Assembly (NCBI RefSeq): GCF_007747445.1
Contig: NZ_CP036425.1
Coordinates: forward strand, 2,898,175-2,962,174
Direction of reading: 5' to 3'
Origin: Poriferisphaera corsica
GTDB lineage: Bacteria; Planctomycetota; Phycisphaerae; Phycisphaerales; Phycisphaeraceae
DNA: 64,000 nt
Below, in pieces: positions 57,450 through 62,227 of the stretch (position 1 is the first letter of the stretch; the number at the start of each line of letters is the position of its first letter). Below the pieces are notes generated by a model that was not told the origin of the DNA, ran no database searches, and was given only the letters and a program-made list of their open reading frames with translations. The translations under genes and the position numbers were made by a program.

Positions 57450-59117
57450 TTATCGACGTGTACCGCGTGAGCGTTTGAAGTACAGGCCATTACGGCGCGC
57501 GATTAAAGATTTAATTTCGAGAACGACGAGCTCTGATTTCAATGTGTGCGTGGGTAGATCAGTCAAACGTATCAGTTCATCAAAATTACGAGCATTCTCT
57601 TCGGTATCAAGCACACTCATGATGATCTCTGAGGGCGTGATGTTTGCATCCGATTGATCTAACTCATCATTAGTTGTTGTGTCGTCTTGATTTTTGATCG
57701 CGTTTTTATGTATCAGTAATTTTTGATTTACAGTATTGCCTGACGATTGCTCTTGATCTTCATGATTCGAATCTATCTTACGTCTATCTAATGATGAGGT
57801 AGTTTGACTGCCTATAGCCGAATGGTAGGGTGCTGCTGAAGGGTGTGTCAGCGAGGAGTTGGCGGGATGATCGCTGCGTTGGTTGGTGGGATGGGAATTG
57901 GGGCGATTGATAGTGGAACTATCCTGGGGTGTTGCTAGAGGTGAAGTTTGTGATGTCGTTGAAAATGTGTTTGACGATAAGGGGGAAGAAGGGGTAGTTG
58001 AGGTGGGAATGAGGGGTGAAATTGTAGACACGCTTGTGGGTGCTGATGGAGATGCTGTCTTTGATGGGTTTGAATCTGTTTCTGAAGCTATTCCGTCGGG
58101 ATTGATGTTTGAGTTCGTCGCGATGTTGATGTCGGTTATTTGCTGGGTTTGCTCTTCGATGGCGGTATATAGATGAGTCTGCTCAGCAACCGTATCAAGC
58201 ACGTCGGCGGGAGTGGTGATGAGTTGAGCGAGTCCGTCGCGGATGAGGGTGTTTGTGCCGGTGGAAACTCGGGAATCGACGCGGCCGGGGAGTGCGAGGA
58301 GATCACGCCCTTGAAGAATGGCGTGCGAGGCGGTGCGCATGGCGCCGGATTTAGTTGCGGCTTCAATGATGAGTGTCGCGAGGGATAGGCCGGAGATGAT
58401 GCGATTGCGAGCGGGGAAGAGTTCGGGGCGTGGGGCGGTGTTCATCGGAAGTTCTGAAATGACGGCGCCGCCGGCGGTTGAGGATGCATCTTGCTCTAAC
58501 TGGCAGATAGATTTGAAGAGTGGCCAATTCTGTTTGGGGTAGGCTTTGGCAAGCCCAGAGCCAAGGACAGCGATGGTGCGGCCGTGACGGTTGATGGTTG
58601 CGGTGTGTGCGGCGGTGTCGATGCCGAGAGCGCCGCCTGAGACGATGGTGAAATTGTGATCGGCGAGTTGTCCGGCAAAGCGTCCTGCCTGCTCTCGGCC
58701 ATAGATGGTGCATTTGCGGGAGCCGACGATGCCGAGCGCATTGGCGTCTTGAAGGTGGAGGTTGCCTTTCACCCAGAGGATGCGGGGCGCGTCGTCGATA
58801 CTGCGGAGGAGTTGGGGGTAATTGTCATCCCAGAGAGAAACGAGGTGAGCGTTATGTTTCTCGATAAGTTCGAGCTCTTGGGAAAGTAAGTCGGATTGAA
58901 GGACGTTGTCGATGGCGGTGCGGATGTTATTTGCACCTTTTGGTGTTAGGCCTTCGATTTGCTGTAGGTTGCTGTTGTCGAGAGAGATGACACGGCGTGG
59001 ATCTGGGGGTTGGTTAATGAGTTTCGCTTCACCAAGGATGAGTTTCTGAGCGGTGATCGGGCCGATACCTTTGGCGAGACGAAGGATGAGTTCGCAATGT
59101 GTTTTGCCCCAATTCAT
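57450..59117 (-). CDS. dprA: DNA processing protein DprA with long low-complexity linker
   Basis: DprA binds incoming single-stranded DNA during transformation and loads RecA. The 555-residue protein has an N-terminal helix-hairpin-like segment (LRLAKGIGPITAQKLI). The Rossmann core follows: YPQLLRSIDDAPRILWVKGN, ALGIVGSRKCTIYGREQAGR, IVSGGALGIDTAAHTATINR, TIAVLGSGLAKAYPKQN, RNRIISGLSLATLIIEAATK and SGAMRTASHAILQGRDLLAL. A C-terminal winged helix lies at about 490-550 (SVLDTEENARNFDELIRLTD). Between core and winged helix lie about 160 residues rich in S, T, N and P, which is highly unusual for DprA (typically 300-400 residues). The ATG at 59117 starts MNWGKTHCEL; the upstream frame is the translated palindrome repeat. 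Confidence 0.92.
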   Translation of the reverse strand: MNWGKTHCELILRLAKGIGPITAQKLILGEAKLINQPPDPRRVISLDNSNLQQIEGLTPKGANNIRTAIDNVLQSDLLSQELELIEKHNAHLVSLWDDNYPQLLRSIDDAPRILWVKGNLHLQDANALGIVGSRKCTIYGREQAGRFAGQLADHNFTIVSGGALGIDTAAHTATINRHGRTIAVLGSGLAKAYPKQNWPLFKSICQLEQDASSTAGGAVISELPMNTAPRPELFPARNRIISGLSLATLIIEAATKSGAMRTASHAILQGRDLLALPGRVDSRVSTGTNTLIRDGLAQLITTPADVLDTVAEQTHLYTAIEEQTQQITDINIATNSNINPDGIASETDSNPSKTASPSAPTSVSTISPLIPTSTTPSSPLSSNTFSTTSQTSPLATPQDSSTINRPNSHPTNQRSDHPANSSLTHPSAAPYHSAIGSQTTSSLDRRKIDSNHEDQEQSSGNTVNQKLLIHKNAIKNQDDTTTNDELDQSDANITPSEIIMSVLDTEENARNFDELIRLTDLPTHTLKSELVVLEIKSLIARRNGLYFKRSRGTRR

Positions 59118-59235
59118 AAGATTGATGGTAGCAGAAGGTGTTTGGGGTGTGAAGATTTTTGAGTATGAATTACGGAATGATGTGGAGATGCGACGGCGAG
59201 TGTGGCTCGCTGACGATTGTTTAACGGAATATGCA

Positions 59236-59300
59236 GATTTTGATTGCAGGCAATCGTCGGGCGGTTGTAGCACACCCCACGACCGGCGGTCGTGGGCTTG
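59236..59300 (-). repeat. Dispersed palindromic repeat, copy 4 (long form)
   Basis: CCCACGACCG (59276-59285), G, then the exact complement CGGTCGTGGG (59287-59296) and CTTG. On the left, a tail carries the small palindrome GATTGCAGGCAATC (59241-59254). The reverse complement aligns with 3112-3177 over about 65 bases. It lies between dprA and the RNA candidate. Confidence 0.8.
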
Positions 59301-59330
59301 ATAGAAAAGGTGGGGGGGGAGAAAGTGAAT

Positions 59331-59362
59331 AAAAATGGCTCGCCACGTAGGTGTGACGAGCC
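59331..59362 (-). terminator. Strong terminator of the RNA candidate
   Basis: On the minus strand, GGCTCGTCAC (59362-59353) pairs with GTGGCGAGCC (59346-59337), 10 pairs with one wobble, loop ACCTAC, followed by ATTTTTATT. It lies upstream of dprA, so it can act as an attenuator for that gene. Confidence 0.88.
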
Positions 59363-59498
59363 GTAGAGGTCGGTATTGTCGGGAGCTTGCCGTCACATCC
59401 CCGGCTGGTGCCGCGAGTGAACGTGGTGACTCCGTAATCAACCCTGGGTGCGTTCAATAAACGGGTGTGTACTGAACGTCAAAGAGGGGGGGGATTGA

Positions 59499-59540
59499 TT
59501 ACCGGGGATTGCTCCCGCTCATACATTGATAATCAGTCAC
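59499..59540 (-). CDS. 13-residue open frame behind a perfect extended Shine-Dalgarno
   Basis: The GTG at 59540 opens VTDYQCMSGSNPR and ends at TAA (59501-59499). AAAGGAGGTGATC (59555-59543) is complementary to the full anti-SD end of bacterial 16S rRNA (GATCACCTCCTTT), with GGAGG 7 bases before the GTG. Most genes in this window have weak or no SD, so this site stands out. It may encode a sensor-type leader peptide or serve as a ribosome-binding decoy. I know no family with this sequence. Confidence 0.45.
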   Translation of the reverse strand: MTDYQCMSGSNPR

Positions 59541-59784
59541 TAGATCACCTCCTTTGAAAAAGGGTTTGTCTGGCCGCCACAAGGTTGCCGATTCGCCACC
59601 GACTGGCTGATAAGTCGGCCCTTGCCGCCAAAATTTTATTGCACCGCAACGTCTTGCGGGCACACTAATCAATGGCTGCACAGCGGTTCAATAGACTATG
59701 CGAGCCAATGATCGGTCAGCCTGGATGGAGATTGCGTGGCATGGTTCGCACGCTTTGCAGATCACCACTTGGACTGACAATTTA

Positions 59785-59813
59785 ATTATGTGGCTGAAAA
59801 TTGTGAAAGTCAA
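59785..59813 (-). promoter_or_regulatory. Promoter of the RNA candidate
   Basis: TTGACT (59813-59808), a 17-base AT-rich spacer and CATAAT (59790-59785); both hexamers match consensus at five of six positions. The expected start is near 59778. Confidence 0.65.
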
Positions 59814-60023
59814 TGATTTTTAGCACATCGTTTGGTAGAAATCCAAATCGTTTTATCACTTGTATGACTATCTGCAATAAGGGGCAAAGCGGTCTTCGGC
59901 TTGCTGGACCAGCGACCTGTCAGGTTTCGGCTATTGAAGTGGTAGGTCATAAGTTGGATGTAAATTTGGATGAATCTGCGAGCTGGAAGCACATAGCTAT
60001 TTGAGAATGAGAAAAGAGGTCAT

Positions 60024-60054
60024 AAAAAAACGAGCAGCGGAAAGCTGCTCGTTT
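60024..60054 (-). terminator. Terminator of the conserved unknown gene
   Basis: AAACGAGCAGC (60028-60038) pairs with GCTGCTCGTTT (60044-60054) around GGAAA, followed by TTTTTTT on the minus strand. Confidence 0.93.
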
Positions 60055-60094
60055 GGGAAAATAATGTTTTTGTGAGGGGAGGAGAGGGGGAGGA

Positions 60095-60634
60095 TTATTT
60101 TGTGTTGGTGAGGAATTTGTATTTGCGTTTGAAGAGGTCGGTAAGGTGTTCCACTTCAGTGGAAGCGTTAGGCGACCATGAGGCCCAAGCAACTTCAACA
60201 GCACACTTGGCAACAGCGGTACGGATGCCTTCACGGATAAATTTGTTGAGGCGTTTGAGAGGGAGTGCTTCGATGAACTCTTCACGAAGCGGCACGCAGA
60301 TTCCAGGGGTTTCTGGATTGGGGATGAAGTAGGCGAGGACTTCGATGTCTTTGCCTTTGCTGTCGGTGAGGATGAACTGCTCGGTCCATTTCCAAGCGGA
60401 GCCGAACCAGATGATTTCGCGACGGATGTTTGGGAATTCGTCGAAGTTTACGAAGAGCTGTTCGAGAATACGCTTGCGACCGGCAGGGTCGTAAACGCTC
60501 ATGAGCATGTCGAAAGTTGGTTTGGTCCAACGATCTTCCCATGCGCCTTGTGTATTTGATTCGGTTGAACTCATGGATTGGATATCCTGTCGTGCTGGTT
60601 CGGAAGAAAAGCCCGGCTGTGGTAGTTGAGTCAT
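60095..60634 (-). CDS. Hypothetical protein of unknown family
   Basis: I do not recognise this gene. The 179-residue soluble protein is rich in aromatic residues. It has FDMLMSVYDPAGRKRILEQL, NIRREIIWFGSAWKWTEQFI, AYFIPNPETPGICVPLREEF and VAKCAVEVAWASWSPNASTE. It looks like a compact alpha/beta protein with a substrate- or nucleotide-independent fold, has no signal peptide or membrane helix, and ends in a basic tail. The ATG at 60634 has AGGGGG 6 bases upstream. An ATG at 60574 (MSSTESNTQGAW) is an alternative, and a TTG at 60676 is rejected. The strong terminator and full SD suggest real expression. Confidence 0.65.
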   Translation of the reverse strand: MTQLPQPGFSSEPARQDIQSMSSTESNTQGAWEDRWTKPTFDMLMSVYDPAGRKRILEQLFVNFDEFPNIRREIIWFGSAWKWTEQFILTDSKGKDIEVLAYFIPNPETPGICVPLREEFIEALPLKRLNKFIREGIRTAVAKCAVEVAWASWSPNASTEVEHLTDLFKRKYKFLTNTK

Positions 60635-60814
60635 GCGGTGCCCCCTGCCCGGCTGTCGGAAAATGATTTTACTCAACAGCTTGCGGTAGGAGGGGTATGA
60701 TGTTGTGCGATTACAGGGGCTGAGCTGCGGATTTGCAGGAAAGACACTATACGTGGATTAAAAAATCAAAGCAAACGGGAAGCTGGGGCGTGAATCCGAG
60801 CATAAAGTCATATT

Positions 60815-61687
60815 ATGAGAGAACTTAGAAATAATAATGCGGGGTATGGTGGGGGAAACGATGGGGGAAATGAACACGGAGGTCATCGAGGCCGTGAGCG
60901 TACGGGGCCGGTACGGGTGGTATTGATGAGCAAGCCACCGATGCCGGGAGCGGTGAAGACACGGCTAGCGAAGGATACTTCAGCGTTTTGTGCGGCACGG
61001 ATCCATCAAGCGATGCTCCAGACAATGATTACGCGATTATCGCATCTGGCAGCGGATATGGGGAAGGGGAAAATTGAGCTGGTGCTGGCACTGACAGATG
61101 TGGAGGGGATGGATGGTAAGATGCGAAAATGGGGGGATATGGTGACACAAACAGCGATCGGCACCAAAATTTTGACGATGGCGAGATGCGACAATCCGCG
61201 GGATGATGAGGTGATGTCGGTGACGTTGCCAGAGGATTGGGGATTAGTGGATCAGGGGACTGGAGAAAATTGGGATTTGGGCAAACGGCTGGAGCACGTT
61301 TGGGGGATGCGGCCTAAGCAGAGTGTGATGTTTTTGGGGACGGATTCGCCCGATGTGCCGGTGGATTATTTGTGGGAAGCGGTGAGGCGATTGAAGAATG
61401 GCCGGGAGGGTGTGATTGGGGAGGTCAGTGATGGGGGGTATTGGACGCTGGGGATGCCTTGGTTTGAGCCAGAATTGGTGAGAGGTGTCGACTGGGGCAC
61501 GGGGAGCGTGTACCATCAGACACTGGAGAACGCTGAGAACGTGAATGTGAGGCTGACAAGTTTGCCGAAGTGGCATGATGTCGACACGTTAGAAGATTTG
61601 AAGGCGATGAGAGATCGCATGAAATTCGAACGTGAGCCTGCGTTACAGCAATTAGTTAAGAAACTGGATGAACTAGCAGGGGTCTGA
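60815..61687 (+). CDS. DUF2064 / TIGR04282-type glycosyltransferase-like protein
   Basis: The 290-residue GT-A-fold protein belongs to the family annotated as arsenosugar-biosynthesis glycosyltransferase-like or DUF2064. VVLMSKPPMPGAVKTRLAKD (about 35-54) is the nucleotide-sugar loop. FLGTDSPDVPVDYLWEAV holds the DxD-like site, followed by GVIGEVSDGGYWTLGM and LPKWHDVDTLEDL. The Gly/Asn-rich N-terminal 30 residues are variable, and a start nearer MSKPPMPG cannot be excluded. The receiver-domain gene begins 6 bases after the stop, so the two are probably translationally coupled. The substrate is unknown. Confidence 0.85.
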   Translation: MRELRNNNAGYGGGNDGGNEHGGHRGRERTGPVRVVLMSKPPMPGAVKTRLAKDTSAFCAARIHQAMLQTMITRLSHLAADMGKGKIELVLALTDVEGMDGKMRKWGDMVTQTAIGTKILTMARCDNPRDDEVMSVTLPEDWGLVDQGTGENWDLGKRLEHVWGMRPKQSVMFLGTDSPDVPVDYLWEAVRRLKNGREGVIGEVSDGGYWTLGMPWFEPELVRGVDWGTGSVYHQTLENAENVNVRLTSLPKWHDVDTLEDLKAMRDRMKFEREPALQQLVKKLDELAGV

Positions 61688-61693
61688 TTGCTT

Positions 61694-62227
61694 ATGAATA
61701 ATGGTGCAGACACAAATAAGGTTGAGGCGCGACAGGACGAGGTTGATTTTGATTTGTCGCAGTCACGAATTCTGATTGTTGATGATAATGAGCAGAATGT
61801 GGAGTTATTGCAGGCGTATTTGGATGCGTTGCCGTGCGAGGTGGATGTGGCATATGACGGTGTGGAAGCGATTGAGTTTATTGAAGATGGGGAGAAAGCG
61901 CTGCCTGATCTGATCTTATTGGACATTATGATGCCAAAAATGTCGGGGTTTGAGGTGTGTCGAAAGTTGAAGGATGATCCGGCGACAAGAAGCATACCGA
62001 TTATGATGGTGACGGCGTTGAATGAACTTGGAGATATTGAACGGGGCGTGGAATCGGGGACGGATGACTTTGTGACCAAGCCAGTCAATAAGCTTGAGCT
62101 ATTAACTCGAGTTAAATCATTACTTCGCGTCAGGCATTTGAAACGGGAACTGGATCGGACTGAAGCGTATATCAAGAACCTGCAACGAGAAGCTGAAGAT
62201 GATCAGATGCAGGATGATGCTGAGTAA
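61694..62227 (+). CDS. Single-domain response regulator (PleD-like receiver)
   Basis: The 177-residue protein has about 20 variable residues and a CheY-like receiver. SRILIVDDNEQNVELLQAYL holds the acidic pocket. The phospho-acceptor Asp is in PDLILLDIMMPKMSGFEVCR, the conserved Thr in MMVTALNELG and the Lys in DFVTKPVNKLELLTRVKSLL. The C-terminal 35 residues form a coiled coil (HLKRELDRTEAYIKNLQREA) with an acidic end and no output domain. The DNEQNVELLQAYL stretch resembles PleD receivers. A TTG two codons earlier is the frame's first start; the ATG is preferred. No kinase is in the window. Confidence 0.88.
   Translation: MNNGADTNKVEARQDEVDFDLSQSRILIVDDNEQNVELLQAYLDALPCEVDVAYDGVEAIEFIEDGEKALPDLILLDIMMPKMSGFEVCRKLKDDPATRSIPIMMVTALNELGDIERGVESGTDDFVTKPVNKLELLTRVKSLLRVRHLKRELDRTEAYIKNLQREAEDDQMQDDAE

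Follow-up and report, generated by a model that had tools for sequence, protein, structure and literature searches.

A putative ribosome-recruiting small RNA gene with a tiny reading frame in Poriferisphaera corsica and its candidate relatives in several bacterial phyla

Close to dprA in the genome of Poriferisphaera corsica lies a stretch of about 450 nt that, judged from its sequence, is very likely a real structured RNA, independently promoted and terminated. Our main reading, to which we assign a probability of roughly 0.6, is that it is a single-copy structured small RNA gene combining a ribosome-recruiting complement of 14-16 nt to the 3' tail of 16S rRNA, a tiny and likely translated reading frame, and a terminator of its own, and that it belongs to a group spanning Planctomycetota, Alphaproteobacteria (part of which is the RNA family CC2171), Myxococcota, and a few other lineages. 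Computation supports the layout, the complementarity, the selection on start and stop codons, the covarying hairpin and pseudoknot in relatives, the single copy, and the spread; transcription, translation, and binding of the 30S subunit are what these features would predict. The features of the locus, given in positions of the window (the whole stretch of DNA analysed, 64,000 nt), are as follows.

59785-59813, minus strand: sigma-70-type promoter TTGACT-17-CATAAT, from a site scan; its hexamers are kept in a sister species (genome G001).
59330-59778, minus strand: RNA gene of ~450 nt, predicted from the fold and comparison with G001, its ends inferred from promoter and terminator.
59569-59778, minus strand: structured 5' domain, its sequence poorly conserved between window and G001, both whole RNAs folding well.
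59540-59555, minus strand: 16-nt complement of the 16S rRNA 3' tail, an over-long Shine-Dalgarno sequence (AAAGGAGGTGATCTAG against CTGGATCACCTCCTTT, with one G-U).
59504-59555, minus strand: match to the covariance model R1 (37.8 bits), in whose alignment the arms pair as a short local alternative.
59499-59540, minus strand: 13-codon frame from GTG to TAA (MTDYQCMSGSNPR), with start and stop kept across relatives.
59511-59517, minus strand: 5' arm of a predicted hairpin (CGGGAGC) inside the frame, considered equivalent to the outer stem that covaries in alignment A1.
59380-59386, minus strand: 3' arm of that predicted hairpin (GCTCCCG), in a 3' block nearly identical in G001.
59337-59362, minus strand: intrinsic terminator stem of 10 pairs, then a T run, from a site scan and comparison with G001.

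The promoter (59813-59785) and the terminator (59362-59337) lie exactly where a preliminary description of this DNA had put them. Because a scan of 57500-62000 finds such sites at nearly their chance level (seven promoters against 4.0 expected, five terminators against 3.7), they weigh little alone. In G001, which carries the RNA at the same position before dprA, the two hexamers are identical with a spacer of 16, and the terminator stem shows a C-G pair replaced by U-A and a one-sided change in another pair, as read by eye from the alignment. The minus strand from 59778 to 59326 has a folding energy of -175.9 kcal/mol against -141.7 +/- 5.7 kcal/mol for shuffled sequences (z -6.04; 0 of 100 reach it), compared with z -1.42 for the plus strand of the same segment and z -5.37 for the homologue in G001. 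Between the two species, near-identity is confined to ~70 nt around the complement and the frame and to a block of ~50 nt that extends to the 5' arm of the terminator; the remainder has drifted strongly. A DNA search finds a single copy in the genome.

An Rfam search, as had been proposed, brought no family to its cut-off anywhere in the window; ARAGORN found neither tRNA nor tmRNA in the window, and neither program matched RNase P RNA, SRP RNA, 6S RNA, or tmRNA. (In a relative, L147, a weak match to the microRNA mir-1304 below its cut-off, at 2712-2825, is taken as chance.) The earlier suggestion of an independent structured RNA is supported by its own promoter and terminator, by the fold (z -6.04), and by covariation in relatives (12 of 13 pairs). 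The remark that the segment contains no long frame is true, but a short conserved one is present, running from the GTG at 59540 to a TAA ending at 59499; that start codon and frame, the complement of the 16S tail, and a sub-threshold match to Rfam CC2171 had been overlooked.

It was this match to CC2171 (RF01867) that led to AAAGGAGGUGAUC.AGUG at 59555-59538. The same segment, AAAGGAGGUGAUCUAG+GUG, is predicted to form a 16-nt pairing with the 3' tail of the genome's own 16S rRNA, whose gene ends with CTGGATCACCTCCTTT, which we take to be the exact mature 3' end; the first base of the GTG is shared with the complement. The 13-mer GATCACCTCCTTT occurs twice in the 4.29-Mb genome, once in the 16S gene and once at the RNA locus. 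In a rough count over 39 crude gene models of the window, no exact match to the tail near a possible start exceeds 7 nt; the RNA reaches 10 nt, the maximum obtainable with that test. Conservation of the complement was assessed over 120 distinct members from the scans of the phylum, the order, Alphaproteobacteria, and Myxococcota described below, which give a censored view, as at most one mismatch was permitted and position 14 could be C or T; L138, L181, and L213, being plain genes or mismatched in the start, were dropped beforehand. Positions 3-10 and 12 are invariant, and 23 of the 24 substitutions in positions 3-14 preserve the pair as G-U. Ten of these fall at position 14, where T was freely allowed; excluding that position leaves 13 of 13. 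Members found with models diverge by G-U in L256, L258, L259, L262, L267, and L281, and have broken 16S pairs in L260, L261, L263, L264, L268, and L269.

Whether pairing within the RNA hides the Shine-Dalgarno sequence was also considered, with mixed results. Duplex energies gave a downstream signal in three alphaproteobacterial groups (mean z -1.3 to -1.8), which pairing from the partition function hardly backs (8.2 against 7.3 nt in the main group, 7.4 against 8.0 and 6.1 against 5.8 in the others), and there was little signal in Phycisphaerales (upstream 6.7 against 5.6 nt, downstream 5.4 against 6.8). An upstream element resembling the 16S tail, CUGG, is seen in 30 of 74 sequences against 9.4 expected; we note it and claim nothing from it.

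The short frame differs between the window and G001 by one substitution, and its start and stop bear marks of selection in relatives. In the alphaproteobacterial scan, position 16 of the motif, where the start codon begins, reads A at 10 and T at one of 31 places and otherwise G, and T17 and G18 are fixed. All of the 20 examined members with diverged motifs found by models have a GTG, ATG, or TTG start at a distance of 14-17 nt from the motif's first base, followed by frames of 10-14 codons, several of these members being near-identical (L286-L288; L263-L264) and L282 having two more starts in other frames. The start spacing is altered in seven of them with the core intact, by -1 in L256, L257, L259, L267, and L269 and by +2 in L282 and L284. 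At the other end, codon 19 in 44 Rhodobacterales-like members, chosen by their stem, is TAG in 25, TAA in 10, TGA in nine, and TGG in none, and codons 13-18 of the same 44 members are mostly hypervariable.

Frame 0 shows a narrow range of lengths; in the other two frames the lengths scatter. In frame 0 they amount to 10-13 codons in 61 of 74 Phycisphaerales sequences and, in 126 alphaproteobacterial rows, to 18 codons in 45, 14 codons in 13, 20-26 codons in 63, and other lengths in five; frames above 45 residues, taken as plain genes or as cases with a mismatched start, were dropped before counting, and the groups labelled 'Rhodo' and 'Brady' were set by frame length, which makes them circular for this measure. 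Selected start and stop codons, as looked for in dual-function sRNAs and small mRNAs, are thus found in relatives, and since start codons switch among GTG, ATG, and TTG and stops among TAG, TAA, and TGA, the short frame is presumably translated. Ribosome profiling in Caulobacter, in the part of the study available to us, shows that intergenic ncRNAs are untranslated, yet two formerly predicted ncRNAs are translated (Schrader et al. 2014, PMC4117421). Many frames among the myxococcal loci L231-L252 share T-A-G-E-V-V, encoded by GGTGAGGTGGTG, a second stretch resembling a Shine-Dalgarno sequence.

Relatives were sought with sequence patterns and with R1, a covariance model built from A1, an alignment of 46 Phycisphaerales sequences from which the window and G001 were deliberately excluded, as were L023 (off-type) and L148 (a near-duplicate). 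R1 recovers the window RNA with 37.8 bits (E 1.9e-7 over the window, 1.3e-5 over the genome), and this is its sole match in the genome at E <= 0.001. Within the window's family R1 hits 18 of 51 genomes, and across the phylum 40 of 294, never more than once in a genome; the remaining 33 family genomes have no match at the cut-off used, with strict filters. An exact search for the 18-mer, allowing C or T at one position, picks out 5 of 294 phylum genomes. With at most one mismatch the 18-mer is found in 73 of 201 genomes of the order Phycisphaerales, at 74 places including a plain gene (L138), a mismatch in the start (L181), and a locus cut by a contig end (L143); in 31 of 240 alphaproteobacterial genomes, of which at least L213 is a plain gene; and in 22 of 188 of Myxococcota. 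The reversed pattern, used as a control, gave 0, 0, 1, and 0 genomes in those four scans. A scan of named genomes yielded at least 117 stretches; among the 80 matches listed, the majority are from Alphaproteobacteria, and the others are from Phycisphaerales, other Planctomycetota, two Myxococcota, one Krumholzibacteriia, and one SAR92, a few matches being plain genes (L042, L071).

The common layout is a long Shine-Dalgarno sequence, a start codon, a frame of mostly 10-26 codons that ends in a hairpin, and a terminator. A terminator-like site lies 3' of the motif in 204 of 230 distinct rows by a crude rule; promoters of relatives were viewed by eye and stand outside all counts. One match per carrier genome together with changing neighbours indicates, as far as sequence can tell, that the RNA has a gene of its own. 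The likeness across the phyla need not reflect common descent, since the 16S tail is universal and a strong Shine-Dalgarno sequence followed by a start could arise by convergence; R1 and RF01867 presumably both draw much of their score from this shared motif.

In Phycisphaerales, the outer stem of the hairpin starts within the frame and encloses the stop codon, and is followed by an inner hairpin with a C-GACG-G loop. The check for covariation in relatives that had been called for gave a positive answer, with 12 of the 13 pairs of A1 changed on both sides at least once; 91.3% of the A1 cells are paired, compared with 83.6% after shuffling and at most 48.0% after sliding. The best hairpin 30-43 nt before the motif is present in 68 of 73 Phycisphaerales sequences, and its loop is often complementary to the codons after the start, most commonly as GUACAG/CUGUAC, with GUCAC/GUGAC, ACAGUC/GACUGU, and CAGUCA/UGACUG as further combinations. 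The longest helix between loop and codons averages 4.18 pairs against 3.66 +/- 0.11 with permuted partners (0 of 500 reach it) and has at least five pairs in 29 of the 68 sequences. A cruder test that does not require the hairpin finds helices of at least six pairs in 36% of the 73 sequences, compared with 8% in shuffles. In Phycisphaerales, the covariation of this loop with the codons after the start therefore describes a predicted pseudoknot; the cruder test gave no excess of such a long-range helix in Myxococcota or in two alphaproteobacterial groups. Neither the pseudoknot nor the inner hairpin is clearly seen in the window itself. Four pseudoknot pairs are counted there, in a hairpin farther upstream, and a five-pair AUCAG/CUGAU helix is possible by eye. 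The site of the inner hairpin holds a long insert, with GACGG in the 3' block at 59394-59390, and R1 aligned a short local alternative.

The window copy scores 15.9 bits against RF01867, well short of the cut-off of 75. RF01867 reaches that cut-off in 5 of 12 alphaproteobacterial loci tried and gives sub-threshold matches of 24-37 bits at the correct place in 9 of 13 other loci (12 from Planctomycetota and one from Myxococcales); some alphaproteobacterial members are therefore CC2171, which on these sequence matches appears to be part of a larger, or convergent, group. Both CC2171 and the window RNA have the 16S-tail complement directly before a start codon and an intrinsic terminator as the 3' end. 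The CC2171 model carries AAAGGAGGUGAUCCAGUG near its 5' end, and its relatives show the short frame, the long hairpin, and the intrinsic terminator. There are also differences: the model starts ~9 nt before the motif, whereas the window RNA has a 5' domain of more than 200 nt. In alphaproteobacterial members, a helix closes right after the start codon, and in many of them UCAUUGUC pairs with GACAAUGG before the terminator; the window RNA is without this helix from start to terminator, its conserved stem beginning 23 nt past the first base of the GTG and pairing with 59380-59386. In two very short versions, L070 (SAR92) and L104, CCAGTG of the motif is complementary to CACTGG immediately upstream of the terminator, into which the frame runs. 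The original report of CC2171 is said to be that of Landt et al. in 2008. No function for CC2171 or RF01867 was found in the literature searched by name, the parts available of papers naming CC2171 giving none, and topic searches returned no title or abstract describing such an RNA.

An alternative explanation for the RNA would be that of a cis-acting leader or attenuator of dprA, in which translating the short frame decides on read-through past the terminator at 59337, and a role in dprA attenuation had indeed been put forward. dprA starts ~210 nt downstream of the RNA on the same strand, and it is likewise downstream and in the same orientation in 6 of the 18 family carriers, representing three genera. 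This small share tells against attenuation of dprA as a general role and makes the RNA probably not mainly a dprA leader: in G436, dprA lies ~3 kb away in the opposite orientation, and in the remaining 11 family carriers no dprA was found downstream over the 0.3 to 8.7 kb examined. Over all collected loci, many of which reach only 0.6 to 1.5 kb from the RNA, tblastn with the window DprA finds dprA only at the window and in G001. Other neighbours elsewhere also speak against this explanation, which we regard as very unlikely, although within this family the RNA may still affect dprA in cis. In Rhodobacterales-like loci, the RNA follows one gene family in 29 loci, as clustered (Vut_1 by Pfam on one), and precedes another in 11 (an RF-1-domain family by Pfam on one); beyond these, neighbours vary. 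As ordinary coding sequence of a small mRNA, on the other hand, the frame itself could be the product, the strong Shine-Dalgarno sequence just securing high expression of a peptide of 10-26 residues that matters in its own right. The conserved start, stop, and frame agree with this, as does D-C-x-K/R-G-L-R/H, found before the stop in many Phycisphaerales peptides, but no common peptide motif is visible by eye between phyla, and codons 13-18 are mostly hypervariable in Rhodobacterales. Moreover, a Cys codon occurs among codons 3-8 in 59 of 74 Phycisphaerales sequences; 58 of them use TGT and one TGC, and this codon often lies within the pseudoknot pairing, so that RNA pairing explains the Cys as well as a peptide would. 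We consider the small-mRNA explanation unlikely.

An RNA with no coding role that works by pairing with the 16S tail, in 16S 3'-end maturation or as a plain blocker of the 30S subunit with the frame incidental, would fit the conservation of the complement, which exceeds that of all other parts and extends to positions 9-14, between the Shine-Dalgarno core and the start. Without translation, however, neither the switching among GTG, ATG, and TTG nor a stop that is never TGG (44 of 44) is expected, and a guide for maturation is further disfavoured because the complement stops at what we take to be the mature 3' end of 16S rRNA and is variable in its first two positions. This alternative appears quite improbable to us.

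Several observations on the surroundings may be recorded here. The gene upstream of the RNA (60095-60643, minus strand; a 182-residue protein without Pfam match) has a homologue adjoining the RNA in 11 of the 18 family carriers and is a steadier neighbour than dprA. L041, L013, and similar loci have Vut_1, a putative transporter, before the RNA and in some cases the RF-1-domain gene, which can be read as ArfB-like, after it; a neighbour of this ribosome-rescue type may be chance or a hint. DprA itself (57450-59117, minus strand) carries a long insert rich in Ser and Thr that separates the core domain from the winged-helix end. Two palindromes, ACGACCGCCGGTCGT and CGGCGAGTGTGGCTCGCTG, lie at 59186-59300 between the RNA terminator and dprA, and G001 has a similar CGGCGAGCGTGGCTCGCCG in the interval from the RNA to dprA.

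Within our main reading of a small RNA gene with a ribosome-recruiting complement and a short frame, we tentatively propose a way of working, because the complement exceeds what initiation needs, the first codons are structured, and the peptide is unconserved between phyla. The RNA would fold with its first codons held in the pseudoknot, as seen in Phycisphaerales, until a free 30S subunit, by invading the long 16S complement, opens the fold. Translation would then run through 10-26 codons into the hairpin and end there, after which the RNA would refold. Its shape or stability could thus signal how many 30S subunits are free and competent for initiation, or divert such subunits. As a general statement, namely an ancient multi-phylum RNA device that measures such subunits, with the 16S tail as the ligand, the pseudoknot as the gate (in Phycisphaerales), and translation as the reset, this is speculative and may well be wrong. 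If true, it would be a riboswitch-like RNA with the small ribosomal subunit as its ligand.

The analysis corrects the idea of a competence-specific leader and gives the group new testable parts, namely the 16S-tail complement, the selected short frame, the covarying hairpin, and the pseudoknot. Rfam covers one slice of it as a single sRNA family, and the group is far wider. According to the accessible part of the Caulobacter study, 75.4% of genes in that organism lack a Shine-Dalgarno sequence at their start (PMC4117421). Against that background, a conserved RNA carrying an almost complete one is conspicuous, and it would provide a direct handle on the use of the anti-Shine-Dalgarno sequence in such bacteria.

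Among known systems, rnTrpL/peTrpL of Sinorhizobium meliloti is likewise a small RNA with a tiny frame. As described in the accessible part of the source (PMC10117765), rnTrpL is leaderless, whereas the window RNA has a nearly full-length Shine-Dalgarno sequence, and neither a biosynthetic operon nor a run of codons for the same amino acid was seen with it. In Staphylococcus aureus, cryo-EM of an extended Shine-Dalgarno interaction shows pairing past CCUCC toward the start (PMC13009471, in the part available); there the extension amounts to two extra pairs, compared with a complement of up to 16 nt here that reaches the start codon. With respect to selective recruitment of ribosomes with a free 16S tail, as proposed here, the closest likeness appears to be the mRNA of bS21 itself in Flavobacterium. 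The two differ in that rpsU encodes a ribosomal protein and the window RNA just a tiny frame, and in that they occur in different groups of organisms. The strong Shine-Dalgarno sequence of the rpsU mRNA is read by ribosomes lacking bS21. The accessible part of the Flavobacterium study describes how bS21 buries the anti-Shine-Dalgarno sequence and controls its own synthesis (PMC10931766).
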